This document shows, in pieces, positions 24,542 to 48,918 of a DNA stretch of 64,000 nucleotides. The stretch spans positions 55,095 to 119,094 of IMG/VR virus record IMGVR_UViG_3300037826_000058. One strand, given 5' to 3'. Position 1 is the first letter of the stretch; every line of letters starts with the position of its first letter. This stretch comes from a virus. A program made the translations under genes and the position numbers. A model generated the notes under the pieces. The model did no database searches, had not been told where the DNA came from, and worked only from the letters and a program-made list of their open reading frames with translations.

Positions 24542-26158
24542 TTAGTCCTCCTGCTTAGGCGAACCGTTGCGGGTAACAGCCGCGTCATACTCGGCGTAGA
24601 TTTCTGGGTGGGCTTCTGCTACAGCCACCGTCGCCTCTGAAACGCTTGCCCCATGCTCTTTTTGGTGTTTCTCAACCAGTGCCTCAAACTTGACCACAGG
24701 GTCAGTTGGGGCGGGGCCACCACTACCCATCTCATCGAACAAACGACCCGTCTCATCAATATTTCCCATAGCTTCTAACAGAGACTCCAGCTCAGCATAG
24801 CGAGCCTTGTCTTCCGTGTCATCCGCGTCGTGGAAATACATCAACAGATCGCCACCATTCTCAACCGGCAGCCCAAGCTCCTCTGCCTTATCTGAGAATT
24901 CTTTTGCCCTTCTTTTGCGCTCAACCATCTTAATCTCTTCCGCGAACTTAGCCGCTTCAGCCTCAGCCTTTTCTTTCTCTTCTCGCAATGCGGCTACTTC
25001 TTCTTCCAGTTCTGTTACCTTGGCCTCGAAGTTGAATACACCGCTTTTAAGCTGCTCAGATAAGGCTTCAACATCAATCGACTGTTCGGGAAAGCGCTCA
25101 GATAGATGGTCAGCGATATTTTGGGCTAACTCTTCTACCTTGATGTCACTCATATCATCTTTCTCCCGATATTCTCCTACTTTGAATTTTTTCTTAGCGT
25201 CTTCGATACGTTTCTCGACAACGTTTTTACCTTTGTATGAAAAGTCTTCCTGTGCAAAGCGCGAGGATGCGTTTTGGACATGAGACTTGTCATGAATGGG
25301 ATAACGATAATTCACCGGGTCGGCAAACTGATCGTCGCTGAGGTCTTCCCACTTGGCGGGCTTGGTTAAATGCCCGTGTTCAAGAATGGCGATATTGTAT
25401 TTCTCAGAGCGAGTCTTCTGTGCTTCGTGCTTTTCCTCTGATTCATTGTTGCCAAACATATCTGAAAGGCGCTCGTAAGCGCGTCTTAACAAATCTATTG
25501 CTTTATCTTCTTCCCCTGTTTCCCACCCTTGATCGTCAGAGAAAATTGCTGTTGCACGCCCCAGACGCGGGCGAGGGGTAAGCGCAATACCAAGTGCTAC
25601 GTTGTCGTAGTAATCTCCATCCAGTGCCTGGTATCTTCTCAATCGTACTTCCGGTGAGGCGTAACGATAACCCTTGTCTTTAATCTCCTCGATTTTTTCT
25701 TCTCTGAAATGGGGTTTCCACTGAACCTCGTTTCCCGTGAACCTTAAGTCATCTATATATCCATAGACACCATATTCGTCACGGTGTAGGATATTAACCG
25801 GCAGGTCATAGTCGGGAATGTTATGCACCTGAAAGTTTGTTACCATCTCTTGCGCGTCTTTCTGTGTAAACTCTATCTTTTTCCCGTAGTGATAGACGGT
25901 TCCTACTGGAAAGTACAGATACCAACCGTCTTCACGCTCAGAGAATGGGACAAAATAAGTTACATCTTCAGCCTTTACCCACTTACCATCCTCTTTCTTG
26001 TAATTTTTCTTGATGACGCCCCACGCTTTCTTGAAAGCCTTTTCCTCACTATCGCCACTGTCTAATGCGCTGTTGACGACTTTAAGAAATTGCTTTTGTG
26101 CAGCTGTAGGAAGTGTTTTTACCCTATCGGGTAATTCAGAAATTTTAGAATATGGCAT
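24542..26158 (-). CDS. Multi-domain prohead protease-scaffold with N-terminal ChaB domain
   Basis: 538 residues. About 1-60 is a ChaB-like domain (PYSKISELPDRVKTLPTAAQKQFLKVVNSAL ... AFKKAWGVIKKNYKK). About 65-205 resembles Mu gpI-type prohead protease: YRYASPEVRLRRY and NVALGIALTPRPRLGRATA (the G-ALT-P-L motif). About 250-330 matches a DUF6582-like segment (ILEHGHLTKPAKWEDLSDDQFADPVNYRYPIHDKSHVQNASSRF). About 375-445 is a scaffold-like coiled coil rich in Glu/Ala/Lys. The protease should cleave the scaffold during capsid maturation. GGAGGATAGATT precedes the ATG. The four-part fusion is unusual. Confidence 0.8.
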   Translation of the reverse strand: MPYSKISELPDRVKTLPTAAQKQFLKVVNSALDSGDSEEKAFKKAWGVIKKNYKKEDGKWVKAEDVTYFVPFSEREDGWYLYFPVGTVYHYGKKIEFTQKDAQEMVTNFQVHNIPDYDLPVNILHRDEYGVYGYIDDLRFTGNEVQWKPHFREEKIEEIKDKGYRYASPEVRLRRYQALDGDYYDNVALGIALTPRPRLGRATAIFSDDQGWETGEEDKAIDLLRRAYERLSDMFGNNESEEKHEAQKTRSEKYNIAILEHGHLTKPAKWEDLSDDQFADPVNYRYPIHDKSHVQNASSRFAQEDFSYKGKNVVEKRIEDAKKKFKVGEYREKDDMSDIKVEELAQNIADHLSERFPEQSIDVEALSEQLKSGVFNFEAKVTELEEEVAALREEKEKAEAEAAKFAEEIKMVERKRRAKEFSDKAEELGLPVENGGDLLMYFHDADDTEDKARYAELESLLEAMGNIDETGRLFDEMGSGGPAPTDPVVKFEALVEKHQKEHGASVSEATVAVAEAHPEIYAEYDAAVTRNGSPKQED

Positions 26159-26215: not shown

Positions 26216-26291
26216 GATTCAGGTGAGCTTAGTTATATCATATCATTTGCATCGCGGCGTAGTTTCCGCGAGCTAAGAATTGTACGTTAGA

Positions 26292-26321
26292 AGTTTACTT
26301 TGGTGAGGTATCAATTGTCAA
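26292..26321 (-). promoter_or_regulatory. Possible sigma70-type promoter of the virion operon
   Basis: Minus strand: TTGACA (26321-26316), 18-bp spacer, TAAACT (26297-26292). The -35 is perfect and the -10 weak. It is the best candidate in the divergent region to start the virion transcript. Confidence 0.45.
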
Positions 26322-26361
26322 GGTTGGCGGTGATTGCACATAAAGATGACTAACGAATCGC

Positions 26362-26390
26362 TTGACAAACCTAGGTATATGGTGTATAAT
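26362..26390 (+). promoter_or_regulatory. Consensus sigma70 promoter giving a leaderless transcript
   Basis: TTGACA (26362-26367), 17-bp spacer, TATAAT (26385-26390). The expected start point is about 26397, which is the A of the ATG of the following methylase gene, so the mRNA would have essentially no 5' leader. Confidence 0.85.
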
Positions 26391-26396
26391 TGCTGT

Positions 26397-26969
26397 ATGA
26401 AAAACCAAAAAGCCCATGTTCTGGCATTTAGTAGCGAAAGCGTTGAGTATTATACTCCCTCAGAAATCATCGAGGCTGCGCGGTCTTTGATGGGGGGAAT
26501 AGACCTCGACCCCGCCTCCTGTGTGGAGGCACAAGAGACTGTTAGGGCCAGAACGTTTTATACCCAACAGGACGATGGCCTTAAACAGCAATGGGAGGGG
26601 CGAGTCTGGCTTAATCCTCCTTATGGGAAGATTGGGAACGAATCATCTCAGGGGTATTGGGCCGAAAGGCTCATCGTAGAATATGATATGGGGAATGTTG
26701 GGGCGGCGTGTCTCTTGACGCGCTCCGCCTTGGGCTACGAATGGTACGAATCCCTGCTAGATCGACTACCTGTTTGCTTGTTTCGCAAACGAGTTGAGTT
26801 TGTCATCCCAGGGGGAGGCACCAAAGGCCCCAGTAAACAAGGGGTGTCGGTTTTCTATCTGGGAGAGAACAGAGCTGGCTTTGTAGAGCACTTCGGGGAA
26901 TTCGGAAGAATCATTTTCCCTGAGGATTATAAGGGGGGCAAGGATGTATGGCAAGCTAACCTTTGGTAA
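26397..26969 (+). CDS. dam: Phage-type DNA N6-adenine methyltransferase (Dam-like)
   Basis: 190 residues. FSSESVEYYTPSEIIEAARSLMGGIDLDPASC opens the fold, WLNPPYGKI carries the catalytic NPPY (about residue 73), and GVSVFYLG follows near the C-terminus. This is the pattern of phage DNA N-6-adenine-methyltransferases. It probably protects phage DNA from restriction or marks it. I use the ATG at 26397, directly at the predicted start point of a consensus promoter. A longer in-frame reading from 26334 would run through the promoter. First gene of a short plus-strand operon. Confidence 0.85.
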   Translation: MKNQKAHVLAFSSESVEYYTPSEIIEAARSLMGGIDLDPASCVEAQETVRARTFYTQQDDGLKQQWEGRVWLNPPYGKIGNESSQGYWAERLIVEYDMGNVGAACLLTRSALGYEWYESLLDRLPVCLFRKRVEFVIPGGGTKGPSKQGVSVFYLGENRAGFVEHFGEFGRIIFPEDYKGGKDVWQANLW

Positions 26970-45269: not shown

Positions 45270-45272
45270 AAG

Positions 45273-45344
45273 CACCCCTGGTGGGATTTGAACCCACACA
45301 CCCTGGTTAGAAGCCAGGAATTCTTTCCATTAAACTACAGGGGC
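45273..45344 (-). tRNA. tRNA-Arg(TCT)
   Basis: Anticodon loop CTTCTAA on CCTGG/CCAGG; acceptor GCCCCTG/CAGGGGT; T-arm GTGGG-TTCAAAT-CCCAC. Confidence 0.9.
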
Positions 45345-45349
45345 TTGTC

Positions 45350-45421
45350 GGCAATCGGAGGCCAACCCCTTCTTAGCTAGCATTATTCAGGGTCAGCCAG
45401 CTTATTACTCGCCCGATTGCC
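45350..45421 (-). ncRNA. Candidate structured RNA A
   Basis: A 72-base element closed by the 9-bp stem GGCAATCGG/CCGATTGCC. Inside are GGC/GCC and ACCC/GGGT helices separated by symmetric CA/CA loops and a large AT-rich loop, so it is one long irregular hairpin. It lies downstream of the Ro60-like gene between two tRNA-Arg genes. Orientation inferred from the neighbours. Confidence 0.55.
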
Positions 45422-45449
45422 AGTCCGAGACTCCAGAAGCCTTACACTG

Positions 45450-45538
45450 TTAAGCAAGGCGGTCGGCGTGCGAGGTCATGAGCCACGTCTAACTGACAGG
45501 CGCACCAGTGCTTTCTTTAACCCTTTCACCTTGCTTAA
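45450..45538 (-). ncRNA. Candidate structured RNA B
   Basis: An 89-base element closed by the perfect 10-bp stem TTAAGCAAGG/CCTTGCTTAA. Inside are a GTGCG/CGCAC helix and small hairpins such as GTC-TAACT-GAC, giving a branched fold. It is 4 bases from tRNA-Arg(TCG) and immediately downstream of the Ro60-like gene. Not a canonical tRNA: no T-arm consensus. Confidence 0.55.
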
Positions 45539-45541
45539 GCA

Positions 45542-45613
45542 AACCCTCGGCGGGAGTTGAACCCGCATCAGCGGGGTCGAAGCCCACCGCTCTCTCCTTT
45601 GAGCTACGAGGGC
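45542..45613 (-). tRNA. tRNA-Arg(TCG)
   Basis: Anticodon loop CTTCGAC on GTGGG/CCCGC; acceptor GCCCTCG/CGAGGGT; T-arm GCGGG-TTCAACT-CCCGC. The 5' end overlaps the last codons of the Ro60-like gene by 10 bp. Confidence 0.88.
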
Positions 45614-47019
45614 ACAACCACTTTGTCGTAGCGTTCATCCATCAAAGTGTTTTCCATCACACTTTGTGGGTCAGCTACTCCGTTCATCACAGCCTGCATC
45701 AGCGAGGGCGAGAAGCCCGATAGCAACCCCACACCACTCTCCGACATCTTTGCGGGGATGCCACTGCTGCTTCTCACGTTCCAGAAAATGACCTGTGGGA
45801 ACGTGTATCCAGCTTCCTTGTACTGGCTTCTCATCATCTCTAAGGCGTTTTTGTCGCCATCCTCAATACAGCGGTCAAACTGCATGTCGCTGATGATTAG
45901 GATGTTTTTTGGCATCTCTTCGTCGGCAAGCTCGGCTCTTTTGGCCCGCATTAACATCAGGTCAAATACCGCCTCAAGGTTGGTGTTCATGTCCCAGTTC
46001 ATGTCCCTGATGGCACACATTTTCTCTTCTAACGTGCCACTAGGAACACGGAAAAACTTGGGTTTCTCTGAGAAGGTCACCACCACATTTTCAAATGGCC
46101 CCTGCAGTTGCTCAGCAAAGTACAGCGCCAATGACACTGACACTTGCATTGGTACACCATCACCGGTGTTCATGCTAGCTGATACATCAGCAACAACCAA
46201 CGTACCGTCTGGTGTGTCCTGCCGAGGCAGGGACTTCCACTGGGCATTCATTGCTCTCACGGTTGAGGGTGTAGCATAACCCAGTAACTTCCGAGCAATC
46301 TCATGCGGGTGAATTGCCCCAGCGTGAACGTCTTCCTCCCCGCTCTCAACACGTTCTAGGAATGCATTGAAGCGGTCGGGCTGGTGTCTGGCAAAAGCGT
46401 CTCGATACTTGGCAAAGGCTTGCGACGGAACGTGGGCAAAGTTGATTCTGTCCCACCTTCCTGCACACATGAGGTTCTCGACAACCTCGGTGTTTCGGGC
46501 AAGCAACTTGCGGTACTCTCGACGTGATAGACCAAACTTCTCCACCAGATAGACCGCGATTTCGTGTTCGCTCTTGCCTTCACGTGGCATCCACTTAGCA
46601 CATAGCTTATCACCTTCTGTCAGAGCTTCCCAAATGAAGGTCAAAGCGTCGTCTTCAACAGGTGTCCCCAAACACACATACAAAACATCATCCCATCGCC
46701 CATAGTGAGGAATGTTGTGTATATTTGCCTTGATGTACTCAGGATGTACCTGGGCCAACCAGCGGGCCGCCAGTCGAAACGAGCGTCGTTCTCCCATTCC
46801 ACCCCGCACGTCTCTAAGGCAAAACAAAGAGCGCATCGCCAGCTCATCGCTTTCCCCAAAAGCCGTGGCAAAGTGACCTACAATGGTATCAACACTCTGC
46901 CCTCGATACCCCCCCATTTTGAAAAACCAATCCAGCATGTGACTGCCAGACGTGGAGTGGGTTGGCATAAAATTCTCTGTTAGGGTGTCGTTCGTGGTCA
47001 TCGCGTCGAAGAAGTTCAT
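45604..47019 (-). CDS. Ro60-like TROVE/vWA protein (DUF2828 type)
   Basis: 471 residues. The N-terminal helical-repeat part (about 25-265: FFKMGGYRGQSVDTIVGHFATAFGESDELAMRSLFCLRDVRGGMGERRSFRLAARWLAQVHPEYI ... IPHYGRWDDVLYV) matches TROVE/DUF2828 proteins. The C-terminal vWA domain begins TLVVADVSASMN (DxSxS MIDAS, about 270), with TNLEAVF and IISDMQFD completing the metal site. Ro60 proteins bind Y RNAs and misfolded RNAs. Four related stem-loop RNAs lie just upstream and two more just downstream. AAGGAGGAGAGG precedes the ATG. Sited within the tRNA array. Confidence 0.8.
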   Translation of the reverse strand: MNFFDAMTTNDTLTENFMPTHSTSGSHMLDWFFKMGGYRGQSVDTIVGHFATAFGESDELAMRSLFCLRDVRGGMGERRSFRLAARWLAQVHPEYIKANIHNIPHYGRWDDVLYVCLGTPVEDDALTFIWEALTEGDKLCAKWMPREGKSEHEIAVYLVEKFGLSRREYRKLLARNTEVVENLMCAGRWDRINFAHVPSQAFAKYRDAFARHQPDRFNAFLERVESGEEDVHAGAIHPHEIARKLLGYATPSTVRAMNAQWKSLPRQDTPDGTLVVADVSASMNTGDGVPMQVSVSLALYFAEQLQGPFENVVVTFSEKPKFFRVPSGTLEEKMCAIRDMNWDMNTNLEAVFDLMLMRAKRAELADEEMPKNILIISDMQFDRCIEDGDKNALEMMRSQYKEAGYTFPQVIFWNVRSSSGIPAKMSESGVGLLSGFSPSLMQAVMNGVADPQSVMENTLMDERYDKVVVPS

Positions 47020-47042: not shown

Positions 47043-47094
47043 AGCCTGCTTTTGTTTTGGTTTCAGGAACCATTTGAGTTGCTGTGAGCAGGCT
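47043..47094 (-). ncRNA. Y-like RNA candidate 1
   Basis: 52 bases, terminal stem AGCCTGCT/AGCAGGCT. On the minus strand the 5' strand is followed by cACAGCAActCAAATGG, then hairpin GGTT-CCTGA-AACC and an A-rich 3' strand. Shares the ACAGCAA motif and layout with the next three elements. 24 bases upstream of the Ro60-like start. Confidence 0.6.
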
Positions 47095-47111: not shown

Positions 47112-47170
47112 AGGCTGCATTAGGGTGAAAGATTAAAGGTCTTTTTCATTTGAATTGCTGTAAGCAGCCT
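47112..47170 (-). ncRNA. Y-like RNA candidate 2
   Basis: 59 bases, terminal stem AGGCTGC/GCAGCCT. Minus-strand 5' part TTACAGCAATTCAAATGA matches candidate 1 closely. An inner A/T-rich hairpin (AAAGA/TCTTT) follows. Confidence 0.6.
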
Positions 47171-47183
47171 AAACAAGTCCGTC

Positions 47184-47245
47184 GGGCTACCATTTGGGTA
47201 AGGCCGGTATTCCGGTCTTTTGATTTGGTTTGCTGTTGGTAGCCC
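47184..47245 (-). ncRNA. Y-like RNA candidate 3
   Basis: 62 bases, terminal stem GGGCTACC/GGTAGCCC. Minus-strand 5' part AACAGCAAACCAAATC; inner hairpin CCGG-AATA-CCGG. Stem sequence differs from the other copies while pairing is kept, i.e. covariation. Confidence 0.6.
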
Positions 47246-47256
47246 AATTATTTCAC

Positions 47257-47349
47257 GGTCTGCTATTTTATATCCAGCGCCAGCTTTATGAGGGAGTCGA
47301 ACCCTCGGATACTCTTCTTTAGAGAGTTATTTTTTGCTGTAAGCAGACC
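47257..47349 (-). ncRNA. Y-like RNA candidate 4 with tRNA-like module
   Basis: 93 bases, terminal stem GGTCTGCT/AGCAGACC, then TTACAGCAAAAA. Inside lies a tRNA-like pair of arms: ACTCT-CTAAAGA-AGAGT (anticodon-arm-like) and GAGGG-TTCGACT-CCCTC (T-arm consensus), without tRNA acceptor or D-arm. Ends two bases from tRNA-Glu(CTC). This layout recalls bacterial YrlA RNAs, which carry a tRNA mimic. Confidence 0.6.
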
Positions 47350-48270: not shown

Positions 48271-48273
48271 TTA

Positions 48274-48331
48274 TCCCCCTCGATGGCATCCCCTACATAC
48301 CCACATTCTCCAACTAGACCACCGAGGGGGC
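48274..48331 (-). other. Truncated tRNA-like element
   Basis: 58 bases closed by the perfect stem CCCCCTCG/CGAGGGGG. A D-arm-like GGTCTAGTTGGAGA follows the 5' strand, but there is no T-arm consensus and only a poor middle hairpin. It sits exactly where a tRNA gene would, between tRNA-Asp and tRNA-Met. Either a tRNA remnant or a minimal tRNA mimic. Confidence 0.5.
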
Positions 48332-48333
48332 AA

Positions 48334-48417: not shown

Positions 48418-48421
48418 ATGT

Positions 48422-48493
48422 ACCCCCGTGAAACACGATCATGGTTCTCCGCACAGAAGAGAAGCATGCTCGTCTGTACTGTTTCACAAAGGG
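48422..48493 (-). ncRNA. Candidate structured RNA C
   Basis: A 72-base long hairpin between tRNA genes: GTGAAACA/TGTTTCAC with flanking CCC/GGG, and inner ACAGA/TCTGT and GCATGC elements. Not followed by a T-run, so not a simple terminator. Confidence 0.5.
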
Positions 48494-48496
48494 TAA

Positions 48497-48833: not shown

Positions 48834-48836
48834 CTG

Positions 48837-48918
48837 TGGAGGTGGCGGGACTCGAACCCGCGTCCCCACCAGTGCCCTTCGGCTTCAAGGTGGGTCGATT
48901 TCCCTTTTCGACACCCCC
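48837..48918 (-). other. tRNA-like element resembling a tmRNA tRNA-like domain
   Basis: Acceptor GGGGGTG/CACCTCC, D-like arm TCGA-AAAGGGAAA-TCGA and T-arm GCGGG-TTCGAGT-CCCGC preceded by GGAC, as at the 3' end of tmRNAs. Instead of an anticodon arm there is CCCACC ... GGTGGG with an 18-base loop. Too short for a full tmRNA. Its 5' end directly abuts the solitary right-end repeat at 48919. Confidence 0.55.

Follow-up and report, generated by a model that had tools for sequence, protein, structure and literature searches.

Small stable RNAs accompany the tRNA genes of phages T5 and T4. In T5 (GenBank AY543070), the rnaIII, rnaI, rna2H, and rnaIV genes, which are located in the tRNA region and encode RNAs of about 100–170 nt, are annotated as "stable RNA with unknown functions," while in T4 the rnaC and rnaD genes (species 1 and 2 stable RNAs) are located at one end of the tRNA cluster, abutting tRNA-Arg. 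Another group of small RNAs, the bacterial Y RNAs (YrlA, RF02553), have paired ends and are encoded near Ro60 genes. In the Listeria phage CKA15, three highly transcribed noncoding regions lie within 2 kb of a Ro60-like gene, and it has been suggested that they are Y RNAs (PMC12282133). A further group, the Class I RNAs, which were reported to be unique to Dictyostelia, are 42–65 nt long, have a GC content of 32%–41%, start with AAG, and end with CUGU (PMC7919456). Their short end stem is conserved in structure and not in sequence, and an 11-nt motif is located beside its 5′ strand (PMC7919456). The window analyzed here covers the final 64 kb of a virus record of 119 kb and contains 34 tRNA genes, each of them on the minus strand, together with a gene for a Ro60-like protein and candidate small RNAs on both sides of this gene.

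Two stem-sealed elements are located between two tRNA-Arg genes

The gap between tRNA-Arg(TCG) (45542–45613, minus strand) and tRNA-Arg(TCT) (45272–45344, minus strand), neither of which has an encoded CCA, is 197 nt long and contains exactly two long perfect inverted repeats. The first repeat closes element A (45450–45538, minus strand), an 89-nt RNA that begins 3 nt past the end of tRNA-Arg(TCG), its immediate upstream neighbor in the transcript. The second closes element B (45350–45421, minus strand), a 72-nt RNA that stops 5 nt short of tRNA-Arg(TCT), located immediately downstream. The 28-nt linker between A and B (45422–45449, minus strand) is predicted to form a weak hairpin (−6.5 kcal/mol). 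The closing stem of A consists of 10 bp with 100% complementarity (45450–45459 with 45529–45538) and on the minus strand is extendable to 12 bp with one U-G pair, and the closing stem of B consists of 9 bp, also with 100% complementarity (45350–45358 with 45413–45421). The two ends of the whole gap are unpaired with each other, and the term "sealed" refers to its two inner units. These exact repeats confirm the first-pass annotation, which had described the gap as filled by elements of 89 and 72 nt with perfect 10- and 9-bp stems. A pair of nonoverlapping perfect repeats of this length was found in 0 of 3000 dinucleotide-preserving shuffles, while a single repeat of at least 10 bp was present in 20 of 3000. 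The weakly folded interior of A, and the fact that no relatives were found in which conservation of the stems would show, could be taken to mean that the inverted repeats of A and B arose by chance and have no function. The result of the shuffles, as well as the array-wide excess of sealed spacers described below, makes this extremely improbable.

The predicted folding of the region was compared between the two strands. The folding energy of B was −29.7 kcal/mol on the minus strand (z = −3.3/−3.4) versus −22.4 kcal/mol on the plus strand (z about −2.2), and for the whole gap the z value was −1.5 on the minus versus −0.2 on the plus strand, although this advantage of the minus strand could in part reflect base composition. 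On the minus strand, nearly all pairs in the closing stems of A and B had a probability above 0.8. Element A folded into a long irregular hairpin, which beyond the closing stem was weakly better than the shuffles (z about −1 to −1.9), while B was branched, with an interior consisting of a 3-bp hairpin and a 10-bp hairpin that contains G-U pairs and a 19-nt loop. One irregular hairpin and one branched element had indeed been described before, but the CA/CA loops in that description, and its choice of which element is branched, fit the plus strand alone. The tRNAs and the Ro60-like gene are encoded on the minus strand, where B has tandem G-U pairs in place of the CA/CA loops.

No match to tRNA (RF00005), YrlA (RF02553), or any other Rfam family was found at E ≤ 5 within positions 45345–45541, and the earlier description of the two elements as structured, noncoding, and distinct from tRNAs is supported. 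Sequence relatives of A and B were found neither by blastn and nhmmer in about 220 loci, nor by blastn among 50,697 phages, and no second copy was found in their own virus record. In the viral_contigs collection the exact pattern of the A core had 0 matches, and that of the B core matched 12 isolated 16-mers, which were hardly extended by blastn or nhmmer. No phage relatives were found in the same collection by using the neighboring 170-aa protein and the portal protein.

The adjacent gene encodes a protein with a Ro60 fold

The gene at positions 45604–47019 (minus strand) encodes a 471-aa protein with DUF2828 (PF11443) and a DUF7788 (PF25043) vWA domain, in which the MIDAS motif DxSxS (D278, S280, and S282) is invariant. 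The TROVE domain (PF05731) had no match in the virus record, and this gene matched DUF2828/DUF7788 instead. A sequence-profile search of solved structures gave a marginal match to Ro60 (E = 0.92), and it was the fold comparison that settled the identity of the protein. The 13 best PDB matches of its AlphaFold2 model (pLDDT 79.9) were all Ro60/TROVE/Rsr structures, with E-values from 1e-10 to 5e-5, and the Ro60 of Thermus phage phiLo was among them. The comparison of the model with Ro60-type structures gave VIA Z values of 18.8–12.5, with about 385–400 residues aligned (Z 18.8 over 401). As modeled, the protein is a Ro60 fold, composed of a helical-repeat ring and a vWA domain, over its full length. 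The name Ro60-like given to the gene in the first-pass annotation is thus right by fold, but it fails the Pfam TROVE test.

The stop codon of this gene (45604–45606) is formed by U8-A9-G10 of tRNA-Arg(TCG), and the gene and the tRNA overlap by 10 bases (45604–45613). Hence A and B do not directly follow the Ro60-like gene, as had been proposed, but come after tRNA-Arg(TCG). Because the stop codon is located inside this tRNA, the gene, the tRNA, and elements A and B are probably parts of one transcript.

Four RNAs upstream of the gene share a signature with RNAs of other phages

Upstream of the gene, four RNAs encoded on the minus strand (47349–47043) all carry the same signature, which consists of a 7-bp end stem followed by NN and ACAGCAA. 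In the first of them (47257–47349, minus strand) the two variable positions are TT, and the RNA contains anticodon-arm-like and T-arm-like hairpins, while in the second (47184–47245, minus strand) they are CA. The third (47112–47170, minus strand) has TT at these positions and ends in CUGU, and the fourth (47043–47094, minus strand) has TC and ends in CUG, so that two of the four window copies have a CUG end. The third and the fourth RNA match RF01414, the Rfam model of the Dictyostelium Class I RNA, from end to end with 22.1 and 20.5 bits, respectively.

The strict signature was counted over about 97 DUF2828 loci, where it was found 74 times on the coding strand versus 3 times on the opposite strand, in 48 sources including the window. 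When the stem was searched for in a looser form, the true motif gave 69 hits versus 9 for permuted motifs. Of the phage loci examined, about half have members of the family next to their DUF2828 gene (for example, L001, L003, L007, L056, L222, and L224), among them those of Listeria P100-like, Felix O1-like, EFDG1, Campylobacter, Sinorhizobium, and Mycobacterium phages. Across phages it is found on either side of the gene, and in L007 it is downstream. Because the search demanded both ACAGCAA and pairing, the invariance of ACAGCAA is a matter of construction, and the covariation table of the family is not independent evidence. The features free of this selection are the strand bias (74 vs. 3), the G after the stem, which is present in 59 of the 67 nonredundant members, the AG start in 44 of 67, the CUG end in 37 of these 44, the median length of 58 nt, and the GC content of 35%. 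Because the loops vary, MAFFT left the 3′ strands of the stems unaligned, and the family was judged by counting its signature, with the opposite strand and permuted motifs as controls, and by the Rfam model.

Some members of the family differ in size or in position. A long member (L226:4449), in which a T-arm precedes a D-arm, matches YrlA over a short stretch with 34.2 bits (E = 3e-6), and three others (L229:3527, L087:21, and L224:7425) appear YrlA-like by eye and by fold. Several Class I-like RNAs are present in a 735-kb phage (LR756501.1, at 186392, 363108, 363721, and 363785, minus strand), which are tens of kilobases away from its DUF2828 gene (at 341 kb), and hence the members of the family need not adjoin this gene. 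In CKA15 (OR088597) a triple of family members is located at about 25.3–25.6 kb (about 25290–25560), directly upstream of the Ro60-like gene CKA15_055. The region 26236–26727 of CKA15, which is among its most transcribed noncoding regions (PMC12282133), differs from this triple. This region (about 5480–5971 of L222) spans ∼490 nt, is flanked by tRNA-Pro and a small ORF, and holds no ACAGCAA, and at this place no Rfam match was found in the arrays of the relatives of L222.

The upstream RNAs resemble the Class I RNAs of Dictyostelium

The likeness of the upstream family to Class I RNAs, which was judged by the Rfam model and the published description, extends to several features. The RNAs are ∼60 nt long, have an end stem of conserved structure but variable sequence, carry ACAGCAA beside its 5′ strand, have a GC content of about 35%, and in many but not all cases start with AG and end with CUG(U). 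They are unlike Class I RNAs in that they are phage-encoded, located beside a DUF2828 gene, and below the Rfam cut-off. The gathering cut-off of RF01414 (41.5 bits) was not reached by any score in the window or in the phage records, with the best score in any phage record being 37.1 bits (E = 5.9e-6), in the 735-kb phage. No RF01414 match was found over the whole records of six tRNA-array phages without DUF2828, while weak matches at E ≤ 1 were present in 7 of 14 control genomes. A match in T4, which is located inside gene 31.2, was set aside as chance.

The shared signature at about half of the phage DUF2828 loci marks small RNAs that resemble Class I RNAs. We regard as an evenly balanced proposal that the Ro60-fold DUF2828 protein, in this and many other phages, works with RNAs of ∼58 nt, of the form stem-NN-ACAGCAA...stem-G, which in the window are the upstream four, that these RNAs belong to the Class I class, and that A and B, which are unrelated to them, form another layer of RNAs, made of sealed inter-tRNA spacers and general in phage arrays. 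If this proposal is true, Class I RNAs would be the Y RNAs of the Ro60-like protein and would not be unique to social amoebae. A Ro60-like partner would make the role and the partners of Class I RNAs directly testable.

Elements A and B do not carry the signature of the upstream RNAs

Neither A nor B has ACAGCAA beside its stem, the best correspondence differing at 2 of the 7 motif positions where the stem is broken, or at 3 or more where it is intact. They also have no AG...CUG ends, no T-loop, no T-arm- or D-arm-like module, and no match to YrlA (RF02553), in which a T-arm is followed by a D-arm. Such a lack of family features bears on the possibility that A and B are additional Y-like ligands of the Ro60-like protein, which diverged from the upstream four. 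Their position near a Ro60-fold gene and their end-closing stems, both of which are as in Y RNAs, are consistent with this possibility, as is the fact that members of the ACAGCAA family may be found upstream or downstream of the gene when other phages are considered. However, A and B have neither the ACAGCAA sequence at the stem, nor the AG...CUG ends, nor the arm-like modules, nor a YrlA match, and sealed spacers are also present in arrays without DUF2828, that of T5 included, which makes it unlikely that A and B are ligands of this kind. For the same reasons the grouping of the six RNAs around one RNA-binding protein gene, as initially annotated, is not supported, because the strict conserved signature is confined to the upstream four; the RNAs around the Ro60-like gene are four plus two and not one set of six. 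The four ACAGCAA RNAs, located across the gene from A and B, are the more likely partners of the Ro60-like protein.

Sealed spacers are common in phage tRNA arrays

To compare A and B with other arrays, the pairing of the first 18 with the last 20 bases of each inter-tRNA spacer was scored, and spacers with a score of at least 8 were considered sealed. Among the inter-tRNA spacers of DUF2828 phages 20 of 67 were sealed. In the controls this score was reached by 1.9% of mismatched pairs of ends, taken from different spacers, by 2.7% of random segments drawn from these loci, and by 1.5% of pairs in which the ends had been shifted into the tRNAs. In six arrays without DUF2828, sealed spacers were 8 of 45, versus 4.2% in the control. 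Hence, in DUF2828 phages, roughly one-quarter to one-third of the spacers between tRNA genes are sealed end to end by their own helix, with the limitation that the 67 and 45 spacers were taken from a few dozen phages, which were selected for similarity in a gene or a tRNA and are not a random sample. The window contains two further sealed spacers, at 48271–48333 and 48418–48496 (minus strand), each with 13 bp and located 3–5 nt from tRNAs.

The T-loop was rare in the sealed spacers (1 of 20) as compared with the others (11 of 47), which indicates that they are not simply missed tRNAs. A related possibility is that A and B arose by decay of tRNA genes and have retained a stem like that of the acceptor. 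Their lengths of 72 and 89 nt match the sizes of class I and class II tRNAs, the T5 rna1, rna2, and rna3 genes are annotated as tRNA-like, and the spacer at 48271–48333 contains a D-arm-like GTGGTCTAGTTGG, which suggests that this spacer may be a tRNA relic. On the other hand, the gap has no RF00005 match at E ≤ 5 and no T-loop, while the stems of A and B have 9–12 bp, and neutral decay would not leave such stems perfect. We therefore consider an origin of A and B by decay of tRNA genes very unlikely.

Elements A and B were also compared with the T5 and T4 RNAs. Like the T5 RNAs, A and B are not tRNAs, are located between or next to tRNA genes, and are encoded on the same strand as these genes, which they abut at 3 and 5 nt. 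The end helices of T5 rnaIII, rna2H, and rnaIV have 12, 10, and 8 bp, as compared with 10 or 12 bp in A and 9 bp in B. No sequence similarity between A or B and the T5 RNAs was seen, and A and B are predictions while the T5 RNAs are annotated as stable. Among the T4 RNAs, rnaC differs from A and B in having a T-arm-like hairpin, and rnaD in having no strong end stem. Sealing is thus not universal, since rnaD of T4 lacks an end stem of this kind and that of T5 rnaI has 5 bp only. The DUF2828 model (PF11443), which does match phages having this gene, had no match in T5, which is a weak negative result, because no control genome was matched in the same search. End-sealing provides a common anatomy for the stable RNAs of T4 and T5 that are annotated without function, and a way to find more of them.

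Elements A and B could be excised as small stable RNAs

The presence of sealed spacers in arrays without DUF2828, and the absence of the family signature from A and B, suggest that the two elements are of the T5/T4 kind and independent of the Ro60-like protein. They are real, but probably belong to a general class of stem-sealed inter-tRNA RNAs and not to the partner RNAs of Ro60. We predict, with a probability of about 0.6, that A and B, as spacer RNAs of the tRNA array, are excised and accumulate as small stable RNAs. As their arrangement suggests, A and B would share a minus-strand transcript with the mRNA of the Ro60-like gene and the tRNAs on either side of the gap. Because these tRNAs have no encoded CCA, a cut behind the discriminator base together with an RNase P cut would free the spacer with defined ends. 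RNase P would cut where tRNA-Arg(TCT) begins, at its 5′ end, while the cut at the 3′ end of tRNA-Arg(TCG) would be made by an RNase Z-like enzyme. A further cut in the 28-nt linker could separate A from B. The paired ends, which form long perfect helices with 3 and 5 unpaired bases toward the tRNAs, may confer resistance to exonucleases and thus allow the RNAs to accumulate, and the sealing may also prevent mispairing of the spacer with neighboring tRNAs. Once released, the RNAs might function as decoys, regulators, or ligands of proteins.

It could also be that A and B act in the precursor only, where they would insulate the folding of the tRNAs and offer short linkers to the processing enzymes, to be degraded afterward. 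This would agree with the short linkers (3 and 5 nt), with the fact that no sequence conservation was found, and with the generality of sealed spacers in arrays. Many tRNA pairs of the same array are, however, just 2–4 nt apart without any spacer, and the counterparts in T5 and T4 are annotated as stable RNAs, which makes a role confined to the precursor rather unlikely as compared with the accumulation of A and B as stable RNAs.

Other RNA and Ro60 genes in phage tRNA arrays

The search of the arrays also showed several other genes. In the window, positions 48834–48918 (minus strand) are tmRNA-like, with a full-span RF00023 alignment of 85 nt that scored 43.6 bits (cut-off 47). This sequence has a typical tmRNA 3′ half, GGACGCGGGTTCGAGTCCCGCCACCTCCAC, but no recognizable tag-reading part, and ARAGORN made no call. 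In Arthrobacter phage Atuin, which has one of the six arrays without DUF2828, a TROVE-type Ro60 gene (L234 8299–9942) is located inside the tRNA array; neither a Class I-like RNA nor, when judged by the Rfam cut-off, a YrlA was found in this phage. This TROVE gene represents another type of Ro60 in the setting of a tRNA array. Permuted tmRNAs are present in the tRNA arrays of Phaeobacter phage MD18 (L235 17372–18393) and Rhodobacter phage RcXuper (L233 19700–20002), and the array of MD18 also contains a GOLLD RNA that overlaps tRNA-Arg.
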